64,000 nt of DNA from Flavobacterium aquiphilum (lineage in GTDB: Bacteria; Bacteroidota; Bacteroidia; Flavobacteriales; Flavobacteriaceae): the NCBI RefSeq assembly GCF_027111335.1, contig NZ_CP114288.1:2976001-3040000 (forward strand), read 5' to 3'. Positions 7,462 through 43,850 of this stretch are shown piece by piece; the first letter of the stretch is position 1, and each line of letters opens with the position of its first letter. The translations under genes and the position numbers were made by a program. Below the pieces are notes generated by a model. That model did not search any database. It was not told where the DNA came from and saw only the letters and a program-made list of their open reading frames with translations.

Positions 7462-7477
7462 ACTGAATCGTTTTAGT
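7462..7477. promoter_or_regulatory. Putative LacI-type operator, susC site 1
   Basis: The sequence ACTGAATCGTTTTAGT matches the shared 16-bp consensus ACTAAAnCGnTTTAGT with one mismatch. It is centred on CG at 7469-7470, about 200 bases upstream of susC. Confidence 0.6.
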
Positions 7478-7526
7478 ACAATTTAATAATAGTATTATAT
7501 TAAAGAACTCTTTTATTTAAAAACCA

Positions 7527-7542
7527 ACTACAACGTTGTAGT
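7527..7542. promoter_or_regulatory. Putative LacI-type operator, susC site 2 (perfect palindrome)
   Basis: ACTACAACGTTGTAGT is the core of an 18-bp perfect palindrome at 7526-7543. It matches the shared consensus at all but two symmetric positions and has the same central CG. Confidence 0.6.
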
Positions 7543-7596
7543 TAATATTTTAAAAAAAAGATAAAGATTCTATTTTGGTACTTTCAATAAAATTAT

Positions 7597-7612
7597 GCTA
7601 AAACGTTTTAAT
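7597..7612. promoter_or_regulatory. Putative LacI-type operator, susC site 3
   Basis: GCTAAAACGTTTTAAT contains the perfect 12-bp palindrome TAAAACGTTTTA at 7599-7610. The same 12-mer occurs at 24037-24048 in the divergent promoter region of the GH29 and uxaA-type genes. Confidence 0.65.
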
Positions 7613-7636
7613 AATAATTAAAAAAACTTAATCGTG

Positions 7637-8650
7637 TTAAACCGATTCTCTTATAATTAAGTTTCCTTTTTTCTTTTCCTTCTGGACTTTAAATTTGGTA
7701 ATATCATCCATCTGCATCATAAGTAATCGAACAGTTTTCTTCCCCATTTCTTCAATAGGCTGCGACATTACAGTTATCGAGGGCGAGTGCAGCCTAAAAC
7801 TATCGTGATCATCAAAACTGATTACTGCTTTGTCTTTAGGTATTTGTAAACCTAATTTTTTAAATGCTTGTAAACCTGCTAATAACAAATAATTGGTGCT
7901 AAACAAAACTGCATCAATATCGGTTACTGTACTCAAAAAATCACAAATCTTTTCAATTCGTTCTTCTTCTGTAATATGATAATCTAATTCCAATATTCTT
8001 GATTTATCATATAATCCAACTTCGTTCAAAGCATCTATATAACCTTGTTTTCTCAATTGCATCTGAACCAATTCTCGTAAATTAGTAACAAATCCAATTT
8101 TTTTAAATCCTTTTTCTAAAAGAAAGCGTGTGGCAGTGTGCCCTCCATCCAAATTATCAAGTACTACGTGACTAACGTTTTGATCCTCAAAATATCGGTC
8201 GATTAACACAACCGGACGTTTTAAATCAATCAATCTGTCAATTGTAGATTTCATTTGCACTGTAGGAGTAATTATAAAACCATCAACATTTGCCTGCAAC
8301 AAACTATCTACCAGTTCAACAGCGCGAGCATCGTCTCCTCCTGTGCTACAATAAAATACTCTATAATTTAATTGAATTGCCTCTCTTTCAATAACTCTTG
8401 CCAATTCAGAAAAAAATTGGTTTGAGATATCTTCAACAATAAGTCCAATAGATCGGGTCTTACCAGTACGTAAACTGCTGGCGATCATATTGGGTTTGTA
8501 TTTCATTTCCTCAGCAACTTTAAGAACTTTTTTGATCACTTCGGCACTTATCCCCATCTTCTCACCTTTATCATTCAAAACAAACGAAACAGTTGTTACC
8601 GATACGTTTGCCGCTTTGGCGATATCCTTGATTGTGATCATTTTACCCAT
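7637..8650 (-). CDS. LacI-family transcriptional regulator
   Basis: This is a 337-residue LacI/GalR-type DNA-binding regulator. The N-terminal helix-turn-helix is clear (TIKDIAKAANVSVTTVSFVL, about residues 6-25), followed by the hinge segment SSLRTGKTRSIGLIV and a periplasmic-binding-protein-like sugar sensor domain with the FDDHDSFRLHSPSITVMSQP signature near the end. Such proteins repress, or occasionally activate, sugar genes and respond to a sugar or sugar phosphate. Two operator-like sites lie 50-80 bases upstream, so it may regulate itself. The same motif upstream of several enzyme operons makes it the best candidate for the locus regulator. The inducer is unknown; fucose, a fucose catabolite or mannose are plausible. 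Confidence 0.93.
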   Translation of the reverse strand: MGKMITIKDIAKAANVSVTTVSFVLNDKGEKMGISAEVIKKVLKVAEEMKYKPNMIASSLRTGKTRSIGLIVEDISNQFFSELARVIEREAIQLNYRVFYCSTGGDDARAVELVDSLLQANVDGFIITPTVQMKSTIDRLIDLKRPVVLIDRYFEDQNVSHVVLDNLDGGHTATRFLLEKGFKKIGFVTNLRELVQMQLRKQGYIDALNEVGLYDKSRILELDYHITEEERIEKICDFLSTVTDIDAVLFSTNYLLLAGLQAFKKLGLQIPKDKAVISFDDHDSFRLHSPSITVMSQPIEEMGKKTVRLLMMQMDDITKFKVQKEKKKGNLIIRESV

Positions 8651-9077
8651 AAAAGTTAATTCTGTCTTAAACTCTGTTAAATTATTATTAACAAATATAT
8701 AGAATAAAACGATTTACAAAAACGTTTTAGTGATTTTTTTTTAACAAAAAATAACCTTTTAACATTTTAACATAATGTTTAAGTATTTAACACTAATGCT
8801 TTAAAAACAGTATCAAATATTACTGTACATTTTGAATTATTCGCAATAAAAAAATAACACCCAACCAAAATCACAGAAAAATACACTTAATAATTTTTAA
8901 CAAAAATTTAAAATAAGAATATCTTTCTTACTTATTCTAATTGCTTATCGATCAATCTATTTATTTCTAAAAAATTAGTAGCCGTATTTTATTATTAATA
9001 AAATTTCCTAGAGATATCAATTTAAAATAACTATTCTACAAAACAGATACAAACTTTTAATTTTGACTGAGAATATT
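8651..9077. other. AT-rich gap between the GH20 gene and the lacI-type gene
   Basis: The first 80 bases hold two overlapping operator-like sites (8703-8718 and 8716-8731) upstream of the regulator. The remainder, to the GH20 stop, is very AT-rich and shows no gene and no convincing terminator. Confidence 0.6.
8703..8731. promoter_or_regulatory. Two overlapping operator-like sites upstream of lacI
   Basis: AATAAAACGATTTACA (8703-8718) and ACAAAAACGTTTTAGT (8716-8731) match the consensus ACTAAAnCGnTTTAGT at 13 and 15 of 16 positions, counting the two n positions as matches. Their CG centres are 13 bases apart. The position suggests autoregulation of the LacI-type gene. Confidence 0.6.
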
Positions 9078-11327
9078 TTAATTTTTAAAATGACTCATCA
9101 CAGAAAAACCTTTTTCCTCAGTCGATTTCATTTTCACTGAAAAATTCCCTCCGGAATCCAAATCAAAATATTCTGCTGCCATTTTGTGCCAGCCTTTTGC
9201 CAACGCTTTTTGCCCTGTTTTGGCTTTGTTTCCGTGTGGTCCGTCATTATCGATTACCATTGCACCGTCAACATATAACATCGAACCATCATTCGAAGCC
9301 AATTCAAAAGTGTAAACGCCATCAGCTTTAACTTCAAAATATCCTTCAAAAATCAACCCCGCAAAACCTTTGAAATCCACTGGCATTTCCATAGTATCAG
9401 CCTTGGATTCTTTGACCAAATTGCTGTTTTTGATGTCGGCACATTTTTTCGATTTAGAATCGTATTCTTTTACGACAATTCCGTCTCCAGCGAAAGTTCC
9501 CGAATAAGCATTTGAATAACTTTCTTTTCTAAATTCTGCTTTGTAAACTTCTGATCCACTTCCATCAGGACGAAACGATCTAAAATTAAACTTTGTAGTT
9601 TCAGACACCGTAAATGGAGCAATATATTTTGTTGAATTTGCTTGCGGAATGGAACCATCTGTAGTATATCGAACCGTAATATTGGGTAAAATACAATTTA
9701 CATTTACCGCTTCATTTTCAGTAAATACATTTAAATCGTTGAAACCTGTCAAGTTTGGAACACGGTAATTAATTTTCTTGGCATCAAGATATTCGATTTC
9801 GTTTACCACTCGGCTTCTAAATTCTTCCCAATTGCGCTTTCCTCCATTCCATGCCCCTTCTGAAAGGGCAAAAAATCGTGGAAAATATTGATGTTCGGCA
9901 CGACGAACCGTAGGAACCGTTTCAGTCCAAAGATTCCCCTGAATACCAATCACATTATTGGATTGCTTTGGCGAAAGCCCTTTCAATGGCTCAAACATAT
10001 AAGCCGATTCCAGAGAAGTTGGCCCTTCCGTTAAATCGAAATACATTTCGAAACAAGGACTTGAAATCGCTTTATTTCCTTGTTCAGTAGCAGTTGGAAT
10101 TGCTTTTGGAGCCCAATTTCTCCACCACATAATTGTCGCTGTTGGCGATAGGCCGCCGTCTAAAATTTCATCCCAACCAATTAATTTCTTGCCTAACTTA
10201 TTGAAATGCTTTTCCATATCGTGAACAAACCACGCCTGTAGTTCCTCAACACCTTTCAAATGTTCCTTTTTTACCTTAGCCTGACATTTAGGGCATTCTT
10301 TCCAATTGGTTCTTTCTACTTCATCAGCACCCAAATGCATGTATTCATAAGGGAATAAACCGGCAACTTCGGTATAAATATCTTTTGCTAATTTCAACGA
10401 TTGCGGATTTCCAACGCATAATGGGTCTGAAAAGGTAGTTCCCATATGTGCGCCACCTTTACAGGAAAGATATGGATAACCAATAATTGCAGCCATAAAA
10501 TGCCCTGGCATATCGATTTCTGGCAAAACATCAATACCTCGCTCTTTTGCATATTTTACCACATTTTTAATTTGTTCCTGAGTGTAAAATCCACCGTAAA
10601 GTGTATCATTTTCGACAATTTTTAAATGTTCTTTAGGCAATTTGAAATCGCTGTTATCCTGTTCTTTACTCAATTTGATACAATCCCTGTCCTGATTATT
10701 CAATTTGCGCCAAGCGCCTTTTTCGGTCAGCAATGGATATTTTTTGATTTCTATTCTCCACCCCTGATCGTCCGTCAAATGCCAGTGAAATTTATTCAAC
10801 TTGTATCTCGCCATCAAATCCAAAAAATGTTTCACTTCATTTTCACTATAAAAATGACGACTCACGTCCAAATGTGCTCCTCTGTAACTGTATTTTGGAA
10901 AATCTTCAATTTTCAAAAATTGTACTTTAGTTTGACTTACACCAACAGGAATCAATTGTTGCAAAGTCGCAACCGACATCAAAACACCTGCAGGAGAAGC
11001 TCCGACAATTGCAATTCCATTATTTGAAACCTCCATTTTGTAAGCTTCCAGTTTTTCATTTTTGTAGCCCAATGAAAGTGTGATATCAGCTTTAATATCT
11101 TTTGAAATTTTCAAATCCAAGCCGTTTTCTTTTCCGATGGTTGCCACAAGATAATTTGCCAATGATGCAAGTCTTGCATCGGTTACTGCGACAGTTGAAC
11201 CGTTTTTTAACGTAAATCCGCCCTCACTATACGTTATACTTTGAGGTTTCGGAATTATAGAAACTCGGTATGGAGTTTGAGACATACAAAGGAATGGCAA
11301 CAATAAAAGTAAAAATGCTTTTTTCAT
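9078..11327 (-). CDS. Beta-N-acetylhexosaminidase GH20 with PA14-like C-terminus
   Basis: This is a 749-residue secreted GH20 enzyme that removes terminal beta-GlcNAc or beta-GalNAc by substrate-assisted catalysis. Order: signal peptide, a GH20b-type N-terminal domain (PYRVSIIPKPQSITYSEGG), a catalytic barrel with YRGAHLDVSRHF, FHWHLTDDQGWRIEIKKYP and the catalytic pair in HLGADEVERTNW, a Fn3/CHB-like domain with YTTDGSIP, then a PA14-like module (GVYTFELASNDGSMLYVDG). It is last in the operon GH3-PNGase-GH20, 30 bases after the amidase gene. In N-glycan breakdown it would expose mannose by removing antennal GlcNAc. It is only distantly like the two other GH20 genes here, which carry a different C-terminal module. 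Confidence 0.93.
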   Translation of the reverse strand: MKKAFLLLLLPFLCMSQTPYRVSIIPKPQSITYSEGGFTLKNGSTVAVTDARLASLANYLVATIGKENGLDLKISKDIKADITLSLGYKNEKLEAYKMEVSNNGIAIVGASPAGVLMSVATLQQLIPVGVSQTKVQFLKIEDFPKYSYRGAHLDVSRHFYSENEVKHFLDLMARYKLNKFHWHLTDDQGWRIEIKKYPLLTEKGAWRKLNNQDRDCIKLSKEQDNSDFKLPKEHLKIVENDTLYGGFYTQEQIKNVVKYAKERGIDVLPEIDMPGHFMAAIIGYPYLSCKGGAHMGTTFSDPLCVGNPQSLKLAKDIYTEVAGLFPYEYMHLGADEVERTNWKECPKCQAKVKKEHLKGVEELQAWFVHDMEKHFNKLGKKLIGWDEILDGGLSPTATIMWWRNWAPKAIPTATEQGNKAISSPCFEMYFDLTEGPTSLESAYMFEPLKGLSPKQSNNVIGIQGNLWTETVPTVRRAEHQYFPRFFALSEGAWNGGKRNWEEFRSRVVNEIEYLDAKKINYRVPNLTGFNDLNVFTENEAVNVNCILPNITVRYTTDGSIPQANSTKYIAPFTVSETTKFNFRSFRPDGSGSEVYKAEFRKESYSNAYSGTFAGDGIVVKEYDSKSKKCADIKNSNLVKESKADTMEMPVDFKGFAGLIFEGYFEVKADGVYTFELASNDGSMLYVDGAMVIDNDGPHGNKAKTGQKALAKGWHKMAAEYFDLDSGGNFSVKMKSTEEKGFSVMSHFKN

Positions 11328-11357
11328 TTAGTATTATTTTATGAATATTTCTTTATT

Positions 11358-12548
11358 CTAAAGTTCGTAAACGAGATACGAACTCACCATCCAGTGGTTT
11401 GAAGTGCCGTTTGCATTTTTTTGAGCTTCGGGAATACTGAAAATTATTGTATGCTTTCCATCTTTCAAGTCAAGCGGAACAATCATGGGCTGAACATTAC
11501 TTCCCGGACACCAGTTTGAGCGGCTTAAATCGCTGCTGGCAATAGGCTCTTCAATTTCTTTGGTCGTGTAAGTTCCTTTATCGTCTTGTATATAGGGAGC
11601 CACGCGCTTTTTCAACCAAACACCGGTTCCTGGATTGAATCGGCGGAAACTGGCACAGTCATCGCGCCACGGAATAAAATCGATTACTTTTTTATCATCA
11701 ATTTTTACAATATTCTGTTTTTTAACAAACTCATCTCCTTCACTGTGACCACCGTGACCTGTAGTGATGTAATATAATTTTGGATTTTTGGCTCCTTTCG
11801 GCAAATTAAATTCAACCTGAAAATCTTTGTAAGCAAAAAGTTCATCATTCCCTTGGTTTGGACCAAAAGGATCGGTATTTAATAGCGGTACAATTACCCT
11901 ATTTTTAGCAACATCACAGCTCAATTCGCTTGGCATAAGATTGATAGAAGCACTTACAATATGCCCGCCTTTGGTATAATTCCCAATGTGTACGCCAATC
12001 CAAACTTCACCTTGCAATAAAGTCGTGAATTGCGAAATATCTTCTTTCCATTTCACTTCTTTTTCCCAATACGGAATATAAACCGGTTTGCGTTGTAAAG
12101 AATCGTTACTGAAATAACCAACACCGAAAGTCGTCATAAAACGCATCAATTCTACCGTTGGACCAAAATTTCCTTCAGGTACAATAGTTTTAATTTTGCT
12201 AAATTCATTTGATGTAAACTTTTTATTTTTCACCACATCCTCAAGCGAATTGTTTTTATCCACAGGAAGTACATAAATTGAACCGGCACGATCGTAACGA
12301 TCTCCACCAGAAATCACTGTAACACTGATTTCGGCTTTGGTATTCAGTTTTTGTTTAGGGAAAGTTACTTTTTTAAACACATACTGGCCTCCACCGTAGT
12401 AAATATTTCCGTTATTGTCGGTTGAAAAATCCTTTCGGCTATCGTCTTGATTTACCCGTATCCGATCGAATATTTCAATCTTTTGTGCTTTTACATTATT
12501 GCAAAAAAACAAAGCTGAAAGTAGCATTGCAAAAATTATTTTTTTCAT
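11358..12548 (-). CDS. PNGase F-like peptide:N-glycosidase
   Basis: This is a 396-residue secreted amidase resembling PNGase F, which cuts the bond between Asn and the first GlcNAc and frees the whole N-glycan. A signal peptide ends near NVKAQ. Recognisable family segments are RYDRAGSIYVL (85-94; Asp86 aligns by eye with catalytic Asp60 of PNGase F), a Gly/His-rich TTGHGGHSEGDEF (262-274; Glu273 is the candidate for Glu206) and NWCPG (345-349), as in the Elizabethkingia enzyme. The position of PNGase F Glu118 seems to hold His187 in my hand alignment. The protein is longer than PNGase F between residues 95 and 160. It sits between GH3 and GH20 in one operon. The family is quite sure; tolerance of core fucose is unknown. 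Confidence 0.88.
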   Translation of the reverse strand: MKKIIFAMLLSALFFCNNVKAQKIEIFDRIRVNQDDSRKDFSTDNNGNIYYGGGQYVFKKVTFPKQKLNTKAEISVTVISGGDRYDRAGSIYVLPVDKNNSLEDVVKNKKFTSNEFSKIKTIVPEGNFGPTVELMRFMTTFGVGYFSNDSLQRKPVYIPYWEKEVKWKEDISQFTTLLQGEVWIGVHIGNYTKGGHIVSASINLMPSELSCDVAKNRVIVPLLNTDPFGPNQGNDELFAYKDFQVEFNLPKGAKNPKLYYITTGHGGHSEGDEFVKKQNIVKIDDKKVIDFIPWRDDCASFRRFNPGTGVWLKKRVAPYIQDDKGTYTTKEIEEPIASSDLSRSNWCPGSNVQPMIVPLDLKDGKHTIIFSIPEAQKNANGTSNHWMVSSYLVYEL

Positions 12549-12582
12549 TATTGTTTGTATTTATGTCAACCTATTTTAAAAT

Positions 12583-15252
12583 CTATTCTGTAACCGTTAA
12601 GATATCCCTCAACTTAATATCTCTTGAAGAAGCTCCAATCATAATTCTGAAATCGCCTGGTTCAACCACCCATTTCATGTCACCGTTCAATATCTGAAGT
12701 GTTTCTTTATTTATTTCAAATGAAATTTCTTTTGATTCTCCGGCTTTTAGGGAAATTCTTTGAAAACCTTTCATTTGTTTAATAGGCTGTGCAATAGATA
12801 CCAAAAGATCTCTTACGTACAATTGAACCACTTCTTCACCATCAACATTACTTGTGTTTTTTATGGAACAATACACTTTTGTGGTTTCTGATTTTCCAAT
12901 TTGCTTTTTATCAAAATGTATATTGCTGTATTCAAAAGTCGAATAACTCAATCCGTAACCGAAAGGAAATAAAGGAGCACCGTTTAAATTCGTATAATCA
13001 TCAGAACGTCCTGTTGGCTTATGATTGTACACCAATGGCAATTGTCCTTCAAAAACGGGAAAGGTAATTGGTAAACGTCCTGCAGGATTTTTGTCCCCAA
13101 AAAGAATATTTGCCACAGCATTTCCTCCGTCTTCCCCCGGATACCATACATCCAAAATTGCAGGAACATTGTTAATCCAATTATTCATCGTGATTGCACT
13201 TCCTCCAACCAAAAGCACAACAACCGGTTTTCCTGTTGCAGCAACAGCATTTATCAATTCTTCCTGATGGCCTAACAATCCCAGATAAGCTCTGTCATTG
13301 AACTCGCCCTCCTCAATTCCGGCAGCAATCACTGCCACATCCGATTTTTTGGCTGCCGCCACTGCATCATCAATTTTTCTTTGCCAATCATTATTTACGC
13401 CAATATTCCAAACTAATTTGAACTTGGCATAACCTTGAGACTCAAAAAACTCAACTCTAATATCGTATTCTTTATCTTTTTCAAAATTAAAATCAACCAA
13501 TTTTGTGGAATAGGTTTGGCTTTTCCAGTTATCAATGATTAGTTTTCCATTCAAATACAAACGGTAACCGTCATTGCCTTCAAAGCCAACTTTGTACGTT
13601 CCTGTTACGGGTGATTTTATTTTTCCGCTCCATTTAGCCGAATAAAAATCGTAATTGATTTTCTCCTGATCCGGTGAATACAAAGTCCAATCAAAATTTA
13701 TCGCATTGTCCAATCGTGACAAAGCAGGACTTCCACTCAATTGCACATTATTGAAATATTCTGCAGACAATCCATTTATCACTTTACCTTTTTCAACAGT
13801 AAATAAATTTGAAGAAGGAACCGGAACATATTCTATGCTTCTCCTGGCAACACCTTCGGCTAGATTAATCGAAACCGATTTTCCTAATTTACCTTTAATT
13901 CCGTCAAGAATACTCACTTTTCCATTTCCGGGGCCGCTGTAACCACCCAATCGGGCTTCAGTAATATCGTGACCAATTAAAGCGATTGATTTTATGTTTT
14001 TTTGCAAAGGCAAAACTTTATTGTCATTTTTCAGCAAAACCATCCCTTTTTCGGCAGCTTCTCTGGCTAATAATTTGTGAGCCGGATTTCCGTTCCATTT
14101 ATTCGTTTCCTTTTCATCGGCATACGGGTGTTCAAATAATCCCAATTCAAATTTCAATCGTAACACTCTTGTAACAGATTCATCAATATTTTTTCTATCA
14201 ATTCTTCCATCAAGGAAAGGTGGTTGAAATAATTTATAATGCTCATAGGCCGTTTGAAAAATAACATCCAGACCATTATTAATTGCATTTGCTCCTGATT
14301 GCGGATAATCTTTGGCAGTATAATGAAGTATATTCCCTCCCCCTACAGCATTAGCATCCGAAATAATGAATCCTTTAAAATTCATTTCCCCTTTGAGTTT
14401 TTTGTTCAATAGCCAATCGTTGGCAGTACAAGGACTTCCGTTTACGGTATTGTACGAAGTCATTACACTTCGACTTCCTCCTTCGGTAAAACAAGCCCTG
14501 AAAGGCGGAAACTGATATTCTTCCAGATAACGTTCGTTGTAATCAATCGGGTAACTGTCTCGTCCCCCATCCCCACTATTTGCCAGAAAATGTTTAGGTG
14601 TTGTTATTACTCCCCTTTCTTCAAAAGACGACACGTAAGCGACTCCCATTTTTGAAGAAAGAAAAGGATCTTCACCATAGGTTTCCTCAACACGCCCCCA
14701 ACGAACATCCGAAGCGAGGTTTACAACTGGCGATAAAATCTGGCGGATTCCGCGACTTTTTGATTCCAATGCAATCGCTGTTGAAACTCTTTTTACCAAA
14801 GCTGGATCAAATGTTGCCGCCAATGAAATAGATTGAGGGAAAGCAGTAGCCCCATCTCTTACCAATCCGTGCAAAGCTTCGTCAAAAGCAATAATCGGGA
14901 TACCAAGACGCGTGTTTTCTATAAAATGTTTTTGAATTTTGTTGATCAATTTTACTGTTTCCTGAGCATTACTTGCTGCGCTGTAATCTAAAATTTGGTT
15001 ACCCGCATCGGTACTTCCTTTGGCGCTTACCTGAAAGCCGAAAATTCCGTTTTTGTAGTTATCTGCACCGTCAGACAAGTCACCGGGAATCATATACATC
15101 TGCCAAAATTTTTCTTCGGGTGTCATTTGGAACAATAAATCCTGAACTCGCTCTTCTACAGGCAATTTTGGATTTTTATATTTCGGCGTTTTTTGAGAAA
15201 ACAATAATTGGCTCCCCAAAAACAAACAAAGTAAAAGTGTATTTTTTTTCAT
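12583..15252 (-). CDS. GH3 beta-glycosidase with PA14 insert (candidate beta-xylosidase or beta-glucosidase)
   Basis: This is an 889-residue exported GH3 enzyme. The signal peptide ends LLFSQ. The N-terminal barrel includes TPKHFLANSGDGG and the nucleophile Asp in GFIISDANAV. The second domain holds EEGEFNDRAYLGL, with the likely acid/base Glu. A PA14 module (GTYKVGFEGNDGYRLYLNGK) is inserted in between, and a Fn3-like domain closes the chain. It lacks the KH(F/I)PGHG motif of GH3 N-acetylglucosaminidases. It heads the operon with PNGase and GH20, with an operator-like site upstream. In that setting it may remove the core beta-1,2-xylose of plant N-glycans, as some Bacteroides GH3 enzymes do; beta-glucosidase is the alternative. 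Confidence 0.88.
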   Translation of the reverse strand: MKKNTLLLCLFLGSQLLFSQKTPKYKNPKLPVEERVQDLLFQMTPEEKFWQMYMIPGDLSDGADNYKNGIFGFQVSAKGSTDAGNQILDYSAASNAQETVKLINKIQKHFIENTRLGIPIIAFDEALHGLVRDGATAFPQSISLAATFDPALVKRVSTAIALESKSRGIRQILSPVVNLASDVRWGRVEETYGEDPFLSSKMGVAYVSSFEERGVITTPKHFLANSGDGGRDSYPIDYNERYLEEYQFPPFRACFTEGGSRSVMTSYNTVNGSPCTANDWLLNKKLKGEMNFKGFIISDANAVGGGNILHYTAKDYPQSGANAINNGLDVIFQTAYEHYKLFQPPFLDGRIDRKNIDESVTRVLRLKFELGLFEHPYADEKETNKWNGNPAHKLLAREAAEKGMVLLKNDNKVLPLQKNIKSIALIGHDITEARLGGYSGPGNGKVSILDGIKGKLGKSVSINLAEGVARRSIEYVPVPSSNLFTVEKGKVINGLSAEYFNNVQLSGSPALSRLDNAINFDWTLYSPDQEKINYDFYSAKWSGKIKSPVTGTYKVGFEGNDGYRLYLNGKLIIDNWKSQTYSTKLVDFNFEKDKEYDIRVEFFESQGYAKFKLVWNIGVNNDWQRKIDDAVAAAKKSDVAVIAAGIEEGEFNDRAYLGLLGHQEELINAVAATGKPVVVLLVGGSAITMNNWINNVPAILDVWYPGEDGGNAVANILFGDKNPAGRLPITFPVFEGQLPLVYNHKPTGRSDDYTNLNGAPLFPFGYGLSYSTFEYSNIHFDKKQIGKSETTKVYCSIKNTSNVDGEEVVQLYVRDLLVSIAQPIKQMKGFQRISLKAGESKEISFEINKETLQILNGDMKWVVEPGDFRIMIGASSRDIKLRDILTVTE

Positions 15253-15335
15253 CGTTTTGATATTAGCTATCTTACAGCATATTTTTATTTATCAAAAAAT
15301 CAATAAAATAGTGTTAGGTAAGATTTTTTCTTTTA

Positions 15336-15351
15336 TCTAAATCGTTTAAAT
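15336..15351. promoter_or_regulatory. Putative LacI-type operator upstream of the GH3-PNGase-GH20 operon
   Basis: TCTAAATCGTTTAAAT matches the shared consensus at 13 of 16 positions (two n positions counted). It lies 84 bases upstream of the GH3 start and just past the terminator of the preceding operon, as expected for a separately transcribed unit. Confidence 0.45.
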
Positions 15352-15363
15352 GGATTTTATAAA

Positions 15364-15397
15364 AAAATGACATCCTCAAAAATGAAAATGTCATTTT
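15364..15397 (-). terminator. Terminator of the GH29-GH110 operon
   Basis: AAAATGACA at 15364-15372 pairs perfectly with TGTCATTTT at 15389-15397. On the minus strand the hairpin ends in a run of seven T. It starts 10 bases past the GH29 stop at 15407. Confidence 0.7.
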
Positions 15398-35463: not shown

Positions 35464-36321
35464 ATGAGAAAATCCATCTTGGTTTTAGGAATATTATTTG
35501 CGTTAGCCAACGCAAATGCGCAGACCAAAGCGCAATCGAGTCTGAATATAATGACATTCAATATCCGTTATGACAATCCGGGTGACGGTTTGAACAATTG
35601 GCAAAACCGAAAAGAAAACGCTTTAAAAATGGTTCGTTTCAATGAGATTGATATTTTGGGAATGCAGGAAGTTTTGGCACATCAGTTAAAGGATTTCACT
35701 ACTAACTTGACTGAATATACTGCGATTGGTGTTGGTCGCGAAGATGGAAAAGAAAAAGGAGAATACAGCCCAATCCTTTTCAACAAAAATAAATTTACCC
35801 TAATCAAGTCAGGCTATTTCTGGTTGAGTCAAACACCGGAAAAACCAGGAAAAGGTTGGGATGCTGCATGTGAACGTATTGCTACTTGGGTACAATTGAA
35901 AGAGAAAGCAACTGGAAAAAAAGTCTTCGTTTTGAATACTCATTTTGATCACATAGGCGAAGTTGCCAGACGTGAAAGTGTAAATTTGATAAAATCAAAA
36001 ATCACACAACTAAGTGAAGGAATGCCTCAAATTATGATGGGTGATTTGAATGCAACGCCCGATTCATCAGTGATATTGGCATTGTTAGCACCTGAAAAAT
36101 CATTAACTCTCTTAGATTCGAAAAAACTGGCACCAATTGTTTACGGTCCAAATTGGTCTTTTCATGATTTTGGAAAAATTCCATTCAAAGACAGACCGCT
36201 TATCGATTATATTTTGGTAACCAAAGGAATCACAGTGAAAAAGTACGCTGTTTTTGCTGAAACGCTAAATGACCTTTGTCTTTCTGATCACGCACCCGTT
36301 TTCATCAATATTTCTCTTTAA
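35464..36321 (+). CDS. Secreted endonuclease/exonuclease/phosphatase (EEP) family protein
   Basis: This 285-residue protein has a signal peptide ending NANAQ and a complete EEP active site: TFNIRYDN, MQEV (metal-binding Glu), NTHFDHIG, GDLNATPDS, DYILV and SDHAPVF. EEP proteins cleave phosphodiester or phosphomonoester bonds in nucleic acids, lipids or sugars. Between two GH92 genes in one operon, and with an alkaline-phosphatase-type gene downstream, it could process phosphate-substituted mannose glycans. A simple secreted nuclease is the alternative. The family is sure, the substrate unknown. Confidence 0.9.
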   Translation: MRKSILVLGILFALANANAQTKAQSSLNIMTFNIRYDNPGDGLNNWQNRKENALKMVRFNEIDILGMQEVLAHQLKDFTTNLTEYTAIGVGREDGKEKGEYSPILFNKNKFTLIKSGYFWLSQTPEKPGKGWDAACERIATWVQLKEKATGKKVFVLNTHFDHIGEVARRESVNLIKSKITQLSEGMPQIMMGDLNATPDSSVILALLAPEKSLTLLDSKKLAPIVYGPNWSFHDFGKIPFKDRPLIDYILVTKGITVKKYAVFAETLNDLCLSDHAPVFINISL

Positions 36322-36347
36322 TATAATAATCATTTACCCCCTCTATA

Positions 36348-38624
36348 ATGAAAAACAACAGCTACATCCTTTTGACATTTCTTTTTTTGAGCTTTGCAGT
36401 AAATGCTCAAGACAAAACGGTTAGTCCGGTAGACCATGTTAGTACTTTGGTCGGAACACAATCGGTTCACAGTTTGTCAAACGGTAATACCTATCCTGCG
36501 ATTGCCCGTCCTTGGGGAATGAATTTTTGGTCTCCTCAAACAGGTAAAATGGGCGACGGATGGATGTACACTTATACAGCCGAAAAAATTCGTGGTTTCA
36601 AGCAAACTCACCAGCCTTCACCTTGGATTAACGATTATGGTCAATTTTCGATTATGCCGGTGACGGGAAAAATTGTTTATAAAGAAGACGAAAGAGCAAG
36701 TTGGTTCAGTCATAAATCGGAAATTGCAAAACCGCATTATTATAGTGTTTACTTAGCCGATTTTGACATCACAACTGAAATAACAGCAACTGAAAGAGCT
36801 GCTCATTTCCAAATCACTTTCCCTAAAAATGATCAATCATCAATTGTAATTGATGCTTTTGACAAAGGTTCATACATCAAAATCATTCCTTCGGAAAATA
36901 AAATCATTGGTTACACAACAAAAAACAGTGGTGGCGTTCCCGAAAATTTCAAAAATTATTTTGTTTTGGTTTTCGACAAACCATTTGAAACAAAATATAC
37001 TTGGAATGATAAAGGGTTAGCAAAAGACCAACTCGAAATGAAAGATGACCATTCGGGAGCTGTTGTTGGCTTTAAAACCAATAAGGGAGAAAAAGTGAAT
37101 GTTCGTGTAGCTTCATCGTTCATCAGTTTTGAACAAGCAGAACAAAACCTGAAAGCGGAATTAAAAAATATGCCTTTTGAAAAAGTAGTAGCCGAATCAA
37201 AAAATGCCTGGAACACAACTCTTGGAAAAGTAAAAGCTGAAGGCGGAACCGACGAACAACTGAATACTTTTTATTCTTGTTTGTACCGCACTGTTTGCTT
37301 TCCACAAAAATTGTATGAATTGGAAGCTTCGGGAAAAATTGTGCATTACAGTCCGTATAACGGAAAAGTTTTGGACGGTTATATGTACGGAGGTACGGGA
37401 TTTTGGGACACTTTTAGAGCCTTGTATCCCCTGTTGAATTTGGTTTATCCTTCCATCAACAGAGAAATGCAGGAAGCATTAATCAATGATTATAAAGAAG
37501 GTGGCTTTTTACCTGAATGGTCAAGTCCAGGTTTAAGAGATTGTATGGTGGGGAACAATTCGGCTTCGATAGTCGCAGAAGCCTATTTGAAAGGTTTGAG
37601 AGGTTATGATATCAACACTTTGTATGATGCCTTGCAACATGGAGCAAACAACGAAGGTCCAAATGCCACAGGACGTAAAGGAGTGGAATATTACAACACT
37701 TTGGGCTATGTTCCTTATGATGTAAAAATCAACGAGAATGCAGCACGTACTTTGGAATATGCTTATGATGACTTTGCAATATGGAAATTGGCGAAAGCTC
37801 TAAACCGTCCTGCGACAGAAATTGCGCAGTACGAAAAACGCATGATGAACTATAAAAACCTGTTCAATCCCGAATTCAAATTAATGAGCGGAAGAAATAA
37901 AGACGGTAGTTTTACCAAAAATTTCAATCCGTTTAAATGGGGCGATGCTTTTACCGAAGGGAACAGTTGGCACTATAGCTGGAGCGTTTTCCACGATATC
38001 CAAGGATTGATCAATTTGATGGGAGGCGAAAAAGCGTTTACAGACAAACTGGACGAAGTTTTTTCGTTGCCGCCAACTTTCGATGATTCTTATTATGGCA
38101 GTGTGATTCACGAAATCCGTGAAATGCAAATTATGAATATGGGACAATACGCTCACGGAAACCAACCAATTCAGCACGTAATTTACCTGTACAATTATGC
38201 GGGACAACCTTGGAAAACACAATATTGGTCTAGAGAAGTGATGAACCGTTTGTACAAACCAACACCTGATGGTTATTGCGGTGACGAGGATAACGGACAA
38301 ACTTCGGCCTGGTATGTTTTCTCATCAATGGGCTTCTACCCTGTTTGTCCGGCTTCGGATGAATATGTTTTGGGTGCGCCATTGTTCAAAAAAGTAACAG
38401 TTTCTTTGGAAAACGGAAAACAAATCGTGATCAAAGCAGATAAAAATTCGGCCGAAAACAAATACGTTCAGGAATTAAAGTGGAACCAAAAAGTGTATGA
38501 CAAAAATTACATCAACCATTTTGATTTGCAAAAAGGAGCCGAACTGGATTTCAACATGATTAATGCTCCAAACAAAAACAGAGGAGCAACCAAGGCAAGC
38601 TATCCGTATTCGTACAGTAAATAA
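36348..38624 (+). CDS. GH92 alpha-mannosidase, NQPIQH variant
   Basis: This 758-residue secreted GH92 enzyme has a signal peptide ending AVNAQ. It shares HVSTLVGTQSVHSLSNGNTYP, FWDTFRALYPL, TEGNSWHYSW and GDEDNGQTSAWYVFSSMGF with the family. Where the neighbour has GNEPSHH this one has GNQPIQH, so the subsite region differs and a different mannose linkage is likely. It follows the EEP gene by 26 bases and precedes GH125 by 73. It probably works after or beside the first GH92 on branched mannose. Confidence 0.94.
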   Translation: MKNNSYILLTFLFLSFAVNAQDKTVSPVDHVSTLVGTQSVHSLSNGNTYPAIARPWGMNFWSPQTGKMGDGWMYTYTAEKIRGFKQTHQPSPWINDYGQFSIMPVTGKIVYKEDERASWFSHKSEIAKPHYYSVYLADFDITTEITATERAAHFQITFPKNDQSSIVIDAFDKGSYIKIIPSENKIIGYTTKNSGGVPENFKNYFVLVFDKPFETKYTWNDKGLAKDQLEMKDDHSGAVVGFKTNKGEKVNVRVASSFISFEQAEQNLKAELKNMPFEKVVAESKNAWNTTLGKVKAEGGTDEQLNTFYSCLYRTVCFPQKLYELEASGKIVHYSPYNGKVLDGYMYGGTGFWDTFRALYPLLNLVYPSINREMQEALINDYKEGGFLPEWSSPGLRDCMVGNNSASIVAEAYLKGLRGYDINTLYDALQHGANNEGPNATGRKGVEYYNTLGYVPYDVKINENAARTLEYAYDDFAIWKLAKALNRPATEIAQYEKRMMNYKNLFNPEFKLMSGRNKDGSFTKNFNPFKWGDAFTEGNSWHYSWSVFHDIQGLINLMGGEKAFTDKLDEVFSLPPTFDDSYYGSVIHEIREMQIMNMGQYAHGNQPIQHVIYLYNYAGQPWKTQYWSREVMNRLYKPTPDGYCGDEDNGQTSAWYVFSSMGFYPVCPASDEYVLGAPLFKKVTVSLENGKQIVIKADKNSAENKYVQELKWNQKVYDKNYINHFDLQKGAELDFNMINAPNKNRGATKASYPYSYSK

Positions 38625-38697
38625 ATTGACAATGGTTTCAGCAGATCATCGTCAAATAGACAATAAACCATCAACAACAAAACAATTAACCGAAAAT

Positions 38698-40158
38698 ATG
38701 CAATCACGTAGAAATTTTATAAAAAATACAGGGATATTATCTGCAGGAATGTTAGCCCTGAGCACTGATGCTTTTGCTTTAGAATCCGGTTCCTTATTTA
38801 ATTTAGGAACTGATTTTGTGAGCCAACGCCCTCCATTGGCACAAAGAAAATTCACCAGTAAAGCTATTGAGGACGCCATTGTTCGTATCAAAAAACAAAT
38901 TGCAAATCCGGAATTGGCATGGTTGTTCGAAAACTGTTTCCCAAATACTTTGGATACCACAGTCGATTTCGAAATCATCGACGGAAAACCGGATACTTAT
39001 GTAATAACTGGAGATATCGATGCTATGTGGCTCCGTGATTCTACTGCCCAAATTTGGCCATACATCCCTTTTGTAAAAGAAGATAAAAAGCTGAAAGAAT
39101 TGGTAAAAGGAGTTATCAACCGTCAAACGAAATGCATTTTGCTTGATCCTTATGCCAATGCTTTTTACAAAGATTTCAATCAGGTGAGTGAATGGAAAAG
39201 TGATTTGACCAAAATGCAGTCCGGAATCCACGAACGCAAATGGGAAATAGACAGTTTGTGCTATCCGGTTCGTTTGGCTCACGGTTATTGGAAGGAAACA
39301 GGAGACACTTCTATGTTTGACGAAAACTGGATAAAAGCTATGAATTTGGTTTTACAAACGTTCAAAGAACAACAGCGTTGGACAAACAAAGGCCCTTACA
39401 CTTTCCAAAGAAACACCGCTTGGGCAACTGATGGTGTACCTTTATCAGGTTACGGCTATCCTGTAAAACCATGCGGATTGATTGTATCAACTTTCCGTCC
39501 GAGTGATGATAGTACTTTATTTGGCTATTTGATTCCGAGCAATATGTTTGCTATCGAAATATTGGGTTACATGATTGAAATGTGTTCAACTCCGACTTTA
39601 AAAGATGATGAAATTGTTAGAAAAGCATCCGAATTAAGAGCACAGGTTCAAAAAGGGTTGAAAGAGAACGGAATTGTTAACCATCCAAAATTCGGTGAAA
39701 TTATAGCCTTTGAAGTAAACGGTTATGGAAGTTTCCATTTTATGGACGACGCCAATATTCCTTCATTATTGTCGTTGCCTTATTTGGGTGCCATAAAACC
39801 AGACAGTCCATTGTATTTGAATACCCGAAAAGTAGTTCTTTCAGACAATAATCCATTTTTCTACAAAGGAAAAGCGGCCGAAGGAATTGGCGGGCCTCAC
39901 ACTGGAGCCGATACAATCTGGCCAATGAGTATTATTTTACGAGCAATTACAAGTGTAGATGAAAACGAAATTAAATATTGCATCAGCACCTTAAGGAAAA
40001 CCCATGCTGATACCGGATTTATGCACGAATCGATTCATAAAGACGATGCCACAAAATTCACGCGCAAATGGTTTGCCTGGGCAAATACCTTATTTGGAGA
40101 ATTAATTGTTAATGTCAGCAAAAATCATCCAAATATTCTAGCTGATAAAAATATTTAA
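38698..40158 (+). CDS. GH125 exo-alpha-1,6-mannosidase with Tat-like signal
   Basis: This 486-residue protein belongs to GH125, inverting exo-alpha-1,6-mannosidases. The motifs GDIDAMWLRDSTAQIWPY, SGIHERKWEIDSLCYP, GYGYPVKPCGLI and the final barrel segment DTGFMHESIHKDD are clear. I start it at the ATG at 38698, which begins MQSRRNFIKNTG, a twin-arginine export signal followed by a hydrophobic stretch; an open frame back to 38563 overlaps the GH92 end and is not plausible coding. It would remove the alpha-1,6 mannose left after GH92 action. Confidence 0.93.
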   Translation: MQSRRNFIKNTGILSAGMLALSTDAFALESGSLFNLGTDFVSQRPPLAQRKFTSKAIEDAIVRIKKQIANPELAWLFENCFPNTLDTTVDFEIIDGKPDTYVITGDIDAMWLRDSTAQIWPYIPFVKEDKKLKELVKGVINRQTKCILLDPYANAFYKDFNQVSEWKSDLTKMQSGIHERKWEIDSLCYPVRLAHGYWKETGDTSMFDENWIKAMNLVLQTFKEQQRWTNKGPYTFQRNTAWATDGVPLSGYGYPVKPCGLIVSTFRPSDDSTLFGYLIPSNMFAIEILGYMIEMCSTPTLKDDEIVRKASELRAQVQKGLKENGIVNHPKFGEIIAFEVNGYGSFHFMDDANIPSLLSLPYLGAIKPDSPLYLNTRKVVLSDNNPFFYKGKAAEGIGGPHTGADTIWPMSIILRAITSVDENEIKYCISTLRKTHADTGFMHESIHKDDATKFTRKWFAWANTLFGELIVNVSKNHPNILADKNI

Positions 40159-40334
40159 ATACATTCCTATGAAATCGCCATTAACAACAAGTTTGCGCAA
40201 GCAATTAATAATCATCGAACACCGATGAAAATAAATTGTTGTGAGATAAACACCAATAAACAAAAGGCGACCCGAGCGGTAGCGAATTGGCGAAGCATAC
40301 CCTATATGACCTATAATAAATAAATTTTACATAT

Positions 40335-41417
40335 ATGAAAAAATACTTATTGTTATTGCTGGTATTCACAAGTGTTTTATCTTATGCACAACAAGCAGAA
40401 AACATTATCATCATAACTACGGATGGACTTCGATGGCATGAGCTTTTTGAAGGAATGGATCAGACAATTGCCAAAGACCGAAAATTTAATCAAGGGGACA
40501 GCACCTATATTTTTAAAAAATACTGGAGTCCTGATGTTAAGGAACGTCGAGAAAAATTGATGCCTTTTATATGGTCATCTATTGCTTCAAAAGGACAATT
40601 ATATGGTAACAGAAATTATGGAAATAAAGTAAATAATGCGAATCCGCATTGGTTCAGCTATCCGGGTTATAGTGAAATAATGACCGGTTATGCCGATCCT
40701 GCAATAAATTCTAACGATTATGGTCCAAATCCTCATGTTACCTTACTGGAATTTTTAAACCAACAGCCAAAACTAAAAGGAAAAGTGGCAGCTTTTGGCG
40801 CATGGGAAGCATTTGACAGAATCTTAAATGAAAAACGAAGCGGAATACCCGTTGCTTCCGCTTTTGACAAAATAGGAGGAAATACGCCAACAGAACAACA
40901 AAAACTAATTAATAACATGCTTAAGGATTCTTATAAACCTTGGCATACCGATGAATGTTTTGATGTTTTTACTCAATATAGTGCCATAGAGGAATTAAAA
41001 ACAAATAAGCCAAAAGTATTATATGTCGCTTTTGGTGAAACAGACGAATGGGCACATGCGGGGCAATACCGTTCTTATTTAGATGCGGCTCATCAAGTCG
41101 ATGCTTGGATCAAACAAATTTGGGACTTTGTTCAAAATGACCCAAAATATAAAAATAAAACTGCTTTGTTCATCACAACAGATCATGGTCGTGGTGATAA
41201 GATAAAACAGGAATGGACTAGTCATGGCAGTTCTATTCAGGACGCATCCGAAATATGGTTTGCCGCTATGGGGCCAGGCATTAGTGAAAAAGGAGAAGTA
41301 AAAACGGAAGGTCAATTATATCAAGAACAATTTGCCCAAACTATTGCAAAACTGATGGGATATACTTTTAAGGCAGAACATCCTATAGCAAAAGAAATAT
41401 CAGAAGTATTGAAATAA
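40335..41417 (+). CDS. Secreted alkaline-phosphatase-superfamily hydrolase
   Basis: This 360-residue protein has a signal peptide ending LSYAQ. Metal-site motifs of the alkaline phosphatase superfamily are visible: IITTDGLRW near the start, GETDEWAHAGQY, ITTDHGRGD, then a His in TSHGSS. The nucleophile is probably in SYPGYSEIMTG. The family includes phosphatases, phosphodiesterases and sulfatases; there is no sulfatase CxPxR motif, so sulfatase activity is unlikely. It follows GH125 after 176 bases. It may take phosphate or phosphoethanolamine off a glycan, but this rests on context only. Confidence 0.82.
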   Translation: MKKYLLLLLVFTSVLSYAQQAENIIIITTDGLRWHELFEGMDQTIAKDRKFNQGDSTYIFKKYWSPDVKERREKLMPFIWSSIASKGQLYGNRNYGNKVNNANPHWFSYPGYSEIMTGYADPAINSNDYGPNPHVTLLEFLNQQPKLKGKVAAFGAWEAFDRILNEKRSGIPVASAFDKIGGNTPTEQQKLINNMLKDSYKPWHTDECFDVFTQYSAIEELKTNKPKVLYVAFGETDEWAHAGQYRSYLDAAHQVDAWIKQIWDFVQNDPKYKNKTALFITTDHGRGDKIKQEWTSHGSSIQDASEIWFAAMGPGISEKGEVKTEGQLYQEQFAQTIAKLMGYTFKAEHPIAKEISEVLK

Positions 41418-41475
41418 TAACCTTTTGTTTTTATTTCAAACAATTAATGCTTTTTGTTTTAAAATAAATTTTCAA

Positions 41476-43662
41476 ATGAATCGATTTCTATTTTCAATTC
41501 TGACAATCTTAAATATAGGACTTGTACAAGCGCAAAATAAAACTGAGCGCAAACAAAATTCACCCTATCAATCAACAAATGTTGATTGGCTGGTTACACC
41601 GATTACTCAAAAAGCATCTGTTTACAAAGAAGGAAAAACAATTATCCTAAATAACGGATTAGTGCGAAGAACTTTTAGAATTTCGCCAAATGTTGCATGC
41701 ACTGATTTCACCAATCTGACTACAGATCAACAATTAATCAGAGCTGTAAAACCAGAAGCCAAAATTACGCTTGACGGAAAAGAATACAACATTGGCGGAT
41801 TAAAAGGTCAAAAAGAAAATGCCTATCTATTACCCGAATGGGTTGATAAAATGGAAGTTGGCAAAGAGGATTTTACTTTTGTCAACTATACAATTTCAGA
41901 CATAAAACCATACATTAATTGGAAAGCAAATAATTGGGCAATGAACAAAAAACTAGCCACAGGAAAATTATTGGTTTTTGAATACGCTTCTTCCCTACAG
42001 GAATTTAAAGGTCTAAAAGTTAAAGTAAACTATGAATTATATGATGGTTTACCATTGATTACCAAATCAGTTACAATCGAAAATTCAACTCAAAAAGTTT
42101 TCAAACTTGATAGAGTCATAAATGAAACCATTGCTATGGTTGAAGAGCAAAGCGCCGTGGAAGGCAATCCCGAAAAGATGCGAAGCCAACACGGATTTTA
42201 TATCGAAACCAATTATGCTTTCAACAACTCAATGAGTTACGAATTGAGCGATCAAACTACACATTGGAAAAAGGATTCCGTTTACACTTCACAAGTACAT
42301 TACAATTACAAAACACCTTGCCTACTTGAGGTTTATCCTAAAAAAACACCGGGAATTGAGTTAAAACCGGGTGAAGTTTACAATTCGGTTCGCAGTAACG
42401 AATTACTGATTGACACTTACGACCGTCAACGTCGCGGATTGATGATCAAGAAAATGTATCGTACTATAGCTCCCTGGACAACCGAAAACCCAATTTTCAT
42501 GCACTTGGTAAGCAAAAACGACGAACAAGTGCGTACTGCAATTGACCAATGTGCCGCAACGGGTTACGAAGCATTGATTTTGAGTTTTGGAAGTCATTTG
42601 AACATGGAATTGGATACTCCTGAAAATTATCAAAAATGGAAAGCATTAGCAGATTACGCTCATAGCAAAGGAGTAAAAATTGGTGGCTATTCGTTGTTTA
42701 GCAGCCGACGAATTAGCGATGAAGATGATGTAGTCGATCCAAAAACCGGGAAACCTGGCGGAGCGTTTTTTGGCGGACATGCGCCTTGTTTTGGAAGTAA
42801 ATGGGGATTGTCCTATAGAGACAGAATCAAGAAATTTTTCACAGAAACAGGTTTTGACATTTGGGAAAATGACGGGCCGTATCCCGGAGATGTATGCGCT
42901 TCGACCACACATCCCGGTCACAAAGGCATAGATGATTCACAATGGAGACAAATGGAAATCCAAAAAGAGTTGTACCGTTGGCTAAACGAAAAAGGAGTTT
43001 ATATCAACGCACCCGATTGGTACTTCCTTGACGGAACACATAAAATAGCTTTGGGTTATCGTGAAGTCAATTTTTCTTTGCCAAGAGATCAACAACGCAT
43101 TTTGAACCGCCAGAATATCCACGACGGAACAATTGAAAAATCAGCTTCCATGTCCTGGGGATTTGTTCCTTTGACAGCTTATCAGGGTGGTGATGCTTCG
43201 GCTGTTTTAGAGCCATTGAGCGAACACTTAAAGGATTACGAACAATTGATGATTCAATATTACGGAGCTGGAGTTCAGGCATGTTACAGAGGTCCTCGCT
43301 TATATGACACTAATGCAACAAAAGAATTGGTTAAAACAACCATCAATTGGTACAAAAAATACCGTGAAATTCTGAATTCCGACATGATTCAGTTACGTCG
43401 CGCTGATGGCAGGGATTGGGATGGTTTTGTGCATGTGAATCCGACATTGAAACAAAAAGCATTTATCATGTTGTACAACCCTACCAAGGATAAAATGATA
43501 AGAACAATCAAAGTGCCTTTGTATTATTCGGGTTTAACCGATAATGCTAAAATTCGGGAGAAAGAAGGTATTGCTAAAAATTACAAAATCAACCGTAATT
43601 ATGAAGCCGAACTGACTTTTTCAATCGAACCGGAAAGTTACACTTGGTATGTTGTTGAATAA
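41476..43662 (+). CDS. Putative TIM-barrel glycoside hydrolase, alpha-galactosidase-like, family unassigned
   Basis: This is a 728-residue secreted protein; the ATG at 41476 begins the signal peptide MNRFLFSIL to LVQAQ. The first half (to about 330) looks like the large beta-sandwich that precedes the barrel in GH36/GH97-type enzymes (ILNNGLVRRTFRISPN). The barrel contains GYEALILSFGSH, FDIWENDGPYPGDV with Asp466, and YINAPDWYFLDG with Asp514. These two Asp are candidates for nucleophile and acid/base as in clan GH-D, by analogy only. It ends the esterase-GH35 operon. It could be an alpha-galactosidase or alpha-N-acetylgalactosaminidase; I do not recognise the exact family. Confidence 0.6.
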   Translation: MNRFLFSILTILNIGLVQAQNKTERKQNSPYQSTNVDWLVTPITQKASVYKEGKTIILNNGLVRRTFRISPNVACTDFTNLTTDQQLIRAVKPEAKITLDGKEYNIGGLKGQKENAYLLPEWVDKMEVGKEDFTFVNYTISDIKPYINWKANNWAMNKKLATGKLLVFEYASSLQEFKGLKVKVNYELYDGLPLITKSVTIENSTQKVFKLDRVINETIAMVEEQSAVEGNPEKMRSQHGFYIETNYAFNNSMSYELSDQTTHWKKDSVYTSQVHYNYKTPCLLEVYPKKTPGIELKPGEVYNSVRSNELLIDTYDRQRRGLMIKKMYRTIAPWTTENPIFMHLVSKNDEQVRTAIDQCAATGYEALILSFGSHLNMELDTPENYQKWKALADYAHSKGVKIGGYSLFSSRRISDEDDVVDPKTGKPGGAFFGGHAPCFGSKWGLSYRDRIKKFFTETGFDIWENDGPYPGDVCASTTHPGHKGIDDSQWRQMEIQKELYRWLNEKGVYINAPDWYFLDGTHKIALGYREVNFSLPRDQQRILNRQNIHDGTIEKSASMSWGFVPLTAYQGGDASAVLEPLSEHLKDYEQLMIQYYGAGVQACYRGPRLYDTNATKELVKTTINWYKKYREILNSDMIQLRRADGRDWDGFVHVNPTLKQKAFIMLYNPTKDKMIRTIKVPLYYSGLTDNAKIREKEGIAKNYKINRNYEAELTFSIEPESYTWYVVE

Positions 43663-43834
43663 CGAAACAAAGATGCTTTGCTTTTAGAAGAAATAGATTA
43701 GGTTTAAACTATCAACTATATCGATTTAATTTACATCAAAATAAGATTTTAGTTATATATTTTCACGAAGCAATGGTTAAAATAATGGAAAATATTTAGT
43801 TTTATGTTAAAATTTGACTATCGACATTCAAATT

Positions 43835-43850
43835 ACTAATACGATTTAGT
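43835..43850. promoter_or_regulatory. Putative LacI-type operator of the GH20-ROK-AGA operon
   Basis: ACTAATACGATTTAGT has one mismatch to the shared consensus and is flanked by T and A that extend the symmetry (TACTAA/TTAGTA). It lies 68 bases before the GH20 ATG. The TACTTTAG at 43870-43877 just downstream resembles a -7 box only loosely. Confidence 0.6.

Follow-up and report, generated by a model that had tools for sequence, protein, structure and literature searches.

In the LacI-family regulons described in PMC4052901, as far as the portions available to us go, an even palindrome with a central CG is given for 1173 of 1303 regulators, autoregulation is found in 72%, more than 75% of the sites lie 30-140 bp before the start codon, and the targets serve sugar utilisation. 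The Bacteroides phylum forms a single taxonomic group there, and the term "flavobacter" is absent from the main text as accessed. For the alpha-mannan and N-glycan regulons of Bacteroides thetaiotaomicron, the accessible part of PMC3878776 names HTCS_Man-type hybrid two-component systems and the GntR protein ManR; the LacI proteins in its table (KdgR, UxaR, UxmR and UxuR) control uronic-acid pathways. No description of a LacI-controlled N-glycan locus was found in the literature searched (including PMC12125979), which was accessible in part and mostly without subscription papers, and in the accessible part of PMC7440613 the LacI term matched only the name Lacinutrix. Such a locus is proposed here in a stretch of 64,000 nucleotides from Flavobacterium aquiphilum (the window), which covers positions 2976001-3040000 of the 5,054,800-bp chromosome. 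The LacI-type protein encoded at 7637..8650 is, with high likelihood, the local repressor of operons for N-glycan uptake, release and trimming, and would act through the 16-bp palindrome ACTAAAnCGnTTTAGT. Positions of up to five digits are those of the window, and seven-digit positions are those of the chromosome unless another genome is named.

One of the main lines of evidence is the crowding of the palindrome around the regulator gene. At up to three mismatches, the window holds 19 sites, against 5.40 +/- 2.44 in 100 dinucleotide shuffles (maximum 14; none reaches 19), and each of the 11 coordinates listed in a preliminary description of the window carries the motif with 0-3 mismatches. The 8 sites beyond that list comprise six inside genes (13976, 16862, 17000, 20534, 30123 and 44611) and two between genes, at 43715 with two mismatches and at 58894 with three and no central CG. 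The whole chromosome has 7 distinct places at up to one mismatch, 50 at up to two and 444 at up to three; the last figure amounts to about one per 11 kb, so a single three-mismatch site is no evidence by itself. Six of the 7 places at up to one mismatch fall between 2954177 and 3019850, within about 66 kb around lacI, which is the clustering of targets that a local LacI regulon requires. At up to two mismatches, 12 of the 50 lie between 2954177 and 3020626 (the core, about 66.5 kb) and the other 38 elsewhere. Eleven of these 12 core sites are intergenic, though intergenic DNA makes up only 5,005 of 66,701 bases. The 839 other permutations of the half-site, all of which were run, average 0.15 intergenic core sites; the two that reach 11 are near-copies of the motif in which the free position alone has moved, and a control of 2,998 random draws contained 2 draws that did as well as the motif. 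The preliminary description had named equal frequency elsewhere as the outcome that would speak against its regulon; at up to one or two mismatches, the motif is not equally common elsewhere.

The same picture emerges from a weight matrix trained off the window, on 15 distinct sites (of 122) that flank lacI genes of a sister group (clade 2, below) in other species, with 400 kb sampled evenly from the window genome outside the locus as background. At 14 bits or more, the matrix finds 14 places in the 66.7-kb core, 12 of them intergenic, compared to 3 in the 400 kb; 0.5 would be expected in the core. Places of at least 15.0 bits are, in score order, 8716, 26355, 43835, 7462, 26170, 7597, 44611, 24035, 43715, 20534 and 7527 in the window, and 2954177, 2973274 and 2969537 to its left. 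These counts bear on the idea that the true targets are only lacI and susCD and that the remaining sites are leftovers or chance. Three relatives (G102, G054 and G091) do carry a lacI-susCD module with few other sites, yet this idea is very improbable in view of the 14 strong places and of the orthologous units of G096 and other relatives, where sites stand before AraC, ROK, esterase and PNGase F-II genes.

The proposed repressor, on the minus strand, is a LacI/GalR-family protein of 337 amino acids (aa) with the recognition helix VSVTTVSFVLN, an assignment also backed by a tree. It has the domain architecture of that family, with Pfam LacI (PF00356, 1.9e-15, 56.8 bits over a cut-off of 27) followed by Peripla_BP_3 (PF13377, 5.3e-27, 95.4 bits over a cut-off of 26.5), and its profile matches to CcpA and PurR chains are nearly full-length. 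The solved structures nearest to it by sequence are CcpA-type first, with PurR and others behind, so they give no indication of the inducing sugar. Among the 11 LacI-type genes of the genome, the helix core TVSF belongs to the window gene only, while TVSK is found in 4 and TISR, TVSR and TVDR in 2 each.

Another argument comes from conservation of the site beside lacI. Close relatives of the protein (E <= 1e-90) occur in 25 of 150 genomes of the genus and in 2 of 397 genomes of the family, both of the same genus, with the window's own genome included in each count. In a scan of named genomes, 222 stretches encoded such a protein, and the best 80 of them, mutually related, were used; because the scan pattern contained the recognition helix, the helix is not an independent result of the scan. 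All 80 loci are from Flavobacterium or Flavobacteriaceae, except two loci of one [Flexibacter] sp. record, and they fall into 18 with 71-83% LacI identity (clade 1) and 62 with 61-66% (clade 2). Both clades are supported (99/98 and 97/99) in a tree built from 63 sequences, namely the window protein, 18 from clade 1, 16 of the 62 from clade 2, 18 from a more distant group and 10 own paralogues; the window LacI falls in clade 1. All 80 loci have a site upstream of lacI (79 at up to two mismatches, 1 at three), and 79 have one within 350 bp downstream (78 at up to two, 1 at three). Anchored on the sites, operators within clade 1 share a mean identity of 0.937 upstream and 0.885 downstream; between the clades, the values are 0.869 and 0.839, while the 30-bp flanks reach 0.33-0.75. 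In the 18 clade-1 loci, 63 of 63 sites at up to two mismatches are found either outside open reading frames (ORFs) of more than 200 aa or no more than 30 bp from the end of one; the same is true of 162 of 165 sites in the 62 clade-2 loci. The comparison between species thus lends strong support to the proposal, first made from the window alone, that a local LacI-type regulon governs the uptake, release and trimming of N-glycans, and the motif very probably belongs to this LacI.

The palindrome could instead be read by another local regulator, the GntR/UTRA protein encoded left of the window or the AraC-type protein at 59026, with lacI merely a target. Both genes belong to the locus, the GntR gene has two sites upstream, and AraC is flanked by sites in several relatives. 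However, G102 and G054 keep an exact site beside lacI, and the 98 and 120 kb fetched from them show no GntR or AraC homologue by BLAST label (the rest of these genomes was not searched). Clade-2 loci likewise keep the site with neither label within about 10 kb (again with the rest of the genomes unsearched), and even palindromes with a central CG are the form reported for LacI proteins in the accessible part of PMC4052901. It is hence highly unlikely that a protein other than LacI is the reader.

The promoter of lacI itself shows how repression by this LacI might work. Its putative autoregulatory operator, O1 (8716..8731, minus strand, 21.8 bits), reads ACTAAAACGTTTTTGT on the coding strand and includes the TTG of the -33 element. 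A second operator, O2 (8703..8718, minus strand, three mismatches, 10.3 bits), is shifted by 13 bp, overlaps O1 by 3 bp within 8703-8731 and lies in the spacer between the -33 and -7 elements. The -7 box, TATATTTG at 8692..8699 (minus strand), is 49 bp before the ATG. Relative to the lacI start, the TTG stands at -69 inside O1 (-81 to -66), and O2 (-68 to -53) fills the spacer. The promoter consensus behind these assignments is general knowledge. The geometry is kept in relatives: the best site is 71-168 bp upstream of lacI in 80 of 80, the second operator is shifted by exactly 13 bp in 17 of 18 clade-1 relatives, in 16 of these 18 the TTG falls on the same operator position and the spacer measures 17-19 bp, and 76 of 79 relatives have a perfect TAnnTTTG after the lacI operator. 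Of the 80 relatives, 75 have an upstream site that is one letter off the palindrome, whereas 48 of the 62 clade-2 loci have an exact site after lacI; this contrast suggests a weaker self-repression of lacI.

Several observations weigh against this regulon or limit its reach. Binding and control of expression are predicted from sequence, and the 80 loci are the best 80 of 222, interrelated and found by a pattern containing the helix. Read backwards without complementing, the motif is about three times commoner genome-wide (151 against 50 sites at up to two mismatches, 1331 against 444 at up to three), and this backwards pattern is as common as the motif or commoner in 3 of 4 relatives as well; its 5 core sites at up to two mismatches are all intragenic. 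Two of the 14 strong core places are also intragenic, at 20534 (GH110, where GH stands for glycoside hydrolase family) and 44611 (GH20). Three of the four deeply read relatives (G102, G091 and G054) have sites at up to two mismatches only beside lacI genes and, at most, in a single further place, so a wide regulon is not a general feature. Across the 150 genus genomes, site density is 0.71 per Mb with the LacI and 0.43 without (one-sided rank test, p = 0.0005), and at least one site at up to one mismatch is found in 25 of 25 genomes with the LacI and in as many as 78 of 125 without a close relative of it. More distant LacI relatives explain these LacI-less sites only in part. For example, of 7 exact-site places fetched from genomes without a close LacI, 4 have a distant LacI (40-43% identical, with the TVSF helix) beside the site and 3 have none. 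Genus-wide, the association of motif and LacI is only moderate; position beside lacI is the better test.

The distant group itself keeps the association. A family-wide search with one of its LacI proteins gave 15 matches in 12 of 397 genomes and 9 of 237 genera, and 10 of the 15 have a site at up to two mismatches beside lacI; among 2000 random 640-bp stretches taken from the window genome, 9 have such a site. Two genes of this group stand side by side in one genome (L213 and L220; G449 C12:91322 and 92384). Exact copies of the motif also stand at L104, L105 and L106 in genus genomes, where the 19 kb fetched show no LacI label.

A further difficulty concerns the sign of regulation. At susC, the promoter is not placeable relative to the operator, so repression there is a guess. 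The sites of susC and of the esterase unit overlap no recognisable promoter, and some sites are far upstream (up to 345 bp). These features would suit a LacI that binds the palindrome as an activator or dual regulator at susC and some enzyme operons. At lacI and at a GH3-GH92 unit left of the window, however, the operator overlaps the -33/-7 region, which is the usual geometry of repression, and an activating or dual role is judged unlikely. For five operators (those of lacI, the esterase, GH20, GH3-GH92 and PNGase F-II), the distance from the start of the operator to the start codon is 72-83 bp.

Under repression by LacI, the proposed targets in the window are lacI (8716 and 8703), susCD (7597, 7527 and 7462), the GH29 unit (24035), the esterase unit (26355 and 26170) and the GH20 unit (43835 and 43715). 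The SusC-like TonB-dependent transporter (3938..7267, minus strand; Pfam Plug, 6.9e-21, and CarbopepD_reg_2) and the SusD-like lipoprotein (2329..3936, minus strand; SusD-like_2, 1e-50) form a pair beside glycan-degrading enzymes recognised by Pfam, which makes this a SusC/D-type polysaccharide utilisation locus. The candidate operator in the gap between lacI and susC (7597..7612, minus strand, 17.7 bits) is the counterpart of the downstream site that 79 of the 80 relatives have just after lacI. Two additional sites upstream of susC are a perfect palindrome with two mismatches to the motif (7527..7542, 15.0 bits) and a putative operator at 7462..7477 (minus strand, 19.9 bits). The long susC leader (7268-7480, minus strand) holds a weakly supported hairpin; a conserved RNA switch was considered there and dropped as too weak, since RNAalifold on 18 leaders gave one 7-pair hairpin at -2.57 kcal/mol with a covariation term of -0.23.

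The leftward enzyme unit (9078..23917, minus strand) encodes, by Pfam, GH29, SDR, GH110, GH2, GH29, GH3, PNGase F and GH20 proteins, which order and orientation suggest to be one operon. Its predicted operator is 24035..24050 (minus strand, 16.1 bits), and relatives have sites before GH29c or an SDR-led unit; a weak accompanying site lies 45 bp away (23990..24005, minus strand, three mismatches, 9.8 bits). The preliminary description had assigned this pair of sites both to the GH29 unit and to a divergent UxaA-type gene. The first assignment is kept, and the second is weak: the UxaA-type gene is 389 bp from its nearest site. A separate operator claimed for the GH3-PNGase-GH20 genes (15336..15351, minus strand) was rejected: it scores 11.9 bits, and no site at up to two mismatches lies within 350 bp before the orthologous GH3 gene in any of the 9 relatives where that stretch is visible. 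Since the site is weak and unconserved, these genes are probably read through from 24035.

To the right, the sole exact match in the genome (26355..26370, plus strand, 21.0 bits) stands 66 bp before an esterase/peptidase-S9-like gene, with an accompanying site 185 bp upstream (26170..26185, plus strand) that has three mismatches, yet reaches 17.9 bits with the clade-2 matrix. Just before the 26355 operator, at 26317-26346, comes a terminator-like hairpin followed by a run of T, with a TATATTTG box upstream; the hairpin may belong to a leader transcript or mark the end of an upstream unit. The unit that follows (26436..43662, plus strand) comprises, by Pfam, an S9-like esterase, GH35, a beta-mannosidase-like GH2, GH92, EEP, GH92, GH125 and two more genes, presumably all one operon. 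Farther on, a putative operator 68 bp before GH20 (43835..43850, plus strand, 19.9 bits) has the same 16 letters as the site before the aspartylglucosaminidase-like gene (AGA) of G096 (site 4111996 of that genome), and a second site upstream of GH20 (43715..43730, plus strand, two mismatches, 15.7 bits) is one that had not been listed before. They would serve a predicted unit of GH20, ROK kinase, AGA, CutC, GH29 and GH29 (43918..52738, plus strand; Pfam). At the window edge, a GH29 gene at 1-722 is cut, and its full ORF begins at 2975391.

The regulon appears to extend about 22 kb left of the window, where three strong intergenic sites (2954177, 2969537 and 2973274) mean that the preliminary description saw only part of the set. 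Further units at least partly in this flank are GH3-GH92, served by 2954177, where the operator overlaps a promoter-like pair, and a GntR-ROK unit with a divergent PNGase F-II-GH29-M28 unit, both served by 2973118 and 2973274. The site at 2969537 perhaps has a sugar-transporter gene as its target; at the corresponding place in G096, there is no site of up to three mismatches with the CG. The second PNGase, of F-II type with an extra N-terminal domain, is at L017:17346-19019, and PNGase F itself at 11358-12548 of the window. The set of sites is larger than first proposed, with 15336 left out as an operator.

Other regulators are present in and around the locus. The GntR/UTRA gene (2972272-2973024; L017:16272-17024), which adjoins a ROK-domain fusion protein and has two operator sites upstream, likely encodes a second regulator under LacI control. 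The AraC-type gene (59026..59892, plus strand; HTH_18, 2.6e-23), possibly another regulator, has only the weak 58894 site here; it lies at the right end of the locus in the window genome, but in several relatives it stands within the locus and has operator sites on both sides. A Pfam scan covered 18 flank proteins, which are part of the flank ORFs, and 36 of the 41 window ORFs of at least 120 aa, the remaining 5 being ORFs that overlap with larger genes; no hybrid two-component system, extracytoplasmic function (ECF) sigma/anti-sigma pair or SusR was found among them. The statement that regulators typical of SusC/D loci are lacking is hence upheld for the two-component and sigma/anti-sigma types among the scanned proteins and needs qualifying for the AraC and GntR/UTRA genes.

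Target counts in clade-1 relatives, at up to two mismatches, cover genes of at least 50% identity for which 350 bp upstream were available. Sites precede lacI in 17 of 17 cases, susC in 17 of 18, AraC in 5 of 5, ROK in 2 of 2, AGA in 1 of 2, and the esterase, GH29c, beta-mannosidase-like GH2, PNGase F-II and MFS2 genes in 1 of 1 each. None precedes susD (0/18), M28 or GH29a (0/13 each), GH29b (0/12), GH3b (0/9), GH2 or SDR1 (0/7 each), PNGase F or GH110 (0/3 each), GH20a or GH29d (0/2 each), or UxaA or GH125 (0/1 each); no site is expected before genes inside an operon. G096 shows a similarly wide set: 7 of its 8 genome-wide sites at up to one mismatch are in the homologous locus (4094137-4150617 of that genome), 3 of these 7 around its second, clade-2 lacI.

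The clade-2 loci point to a second regulator with the same operator. A SusC homologue follows LacI in 58 of the 62, usually with GH2 and GH92 behind it, and GH92, GH125 and ROK come next where longer sequence is available; this SusC is 28-30% identical to the window SusC in all but one (59%). Both clades occur together in 6 genomes among the best 80 of the 222 stretches; F. denitrificans is an example of a species with both proteins. A clade-2 LacI is missing from the window genome, where the next best protein has 33% identity, as is a close clade-2 SusC, for which matches reach 34% over the full length and 43% in one partial stretch. Even so, the genome's homologues of the clade-2 enzymes, mostly 69-84% identical, sit in the unit behind 26355. 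Tentatively, two sister LacI proteins might have kept one operator while their sensor domains and targets diverged, one serving a fucosylated or complex N-glycan locus and the other a mannose-core locus, and the window genome might be a merger, with GH2, GH92, GH92 and GH125 now under the first LacI. Because the operator is shared, operons could move between the two regulons without a change of promoter, and it is the absence of the clade-2 LacI and SusC, with their enzymes behind 26355, that leads to this reading. The merged layout may also be the older state. The layout is not unique to the window, since in F. succinicans (L122) the GH2 typical of clade 2 also adjoins a site in a clade-1 locus.

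Taken as a mechanism, a LacI dimer would bind the palindrome and, when the inducer is absent, occupy the operators at the promoters of lacI, susCD and the large enzyme operons, blocking RNA polymerase. At lacI, O1 would cover the TTG of the -33 element and the overlapping O2 would fill the spacer before the -7 box. An imported N-glycan-derived sugar would bind the periplasmic-binding-protein-like domain, and LacI would leave the DNA. Uptake, glycan release by PNGase F, trimming of fucose, galactose, N-acetylglucosamine (GlcNAc) and mannose, and cleavage of Asn-GlcNAc would then be induced jointly, with enzyme functions as predicted from Pfam. Such a system would provide a defined control point for N-glycan foraging in environmental Bacteroidetes, for which comparable Bacteroides loci use other regulator types. 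The operator would allow the regulon to be read from sequence in other Flavobacterium species, and sister repressors with one operator would be a natural test of regulon merging or splitting.

As far as the sources could be consulted, the locus combines features of several known systems. Like the local sugar regulons of PMC4052901, it shares the palindrome shape, an autoregulation site and sugar-utilisation targets, but unlike them, its proposed LacI regulon takes in a SusC/D pair as well as several large enzyme units. The B. thetaiotaomicron HTCS_Man/ManR system (PMC3878776) also joins SusCD to mannosidases, and three paralogous regulators there also have similar motifs; its regulators, however, are hybrid two-component and GntR proteins, whereas the window locus has a LacI. 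A lacI gene inside a SusC/D locus is likewise found in the xylan locus of Gramella flava (PMC5306329) and as lacI23 of Flavobacterium IR1 (PMC9131120), but these loci deal with other glycans, and the accessible parts of both papers mention no operator. Operator shape and self-control by LacI are thus already the rule, and what would be new is a wide LacI regulon on an N-glycan locus.

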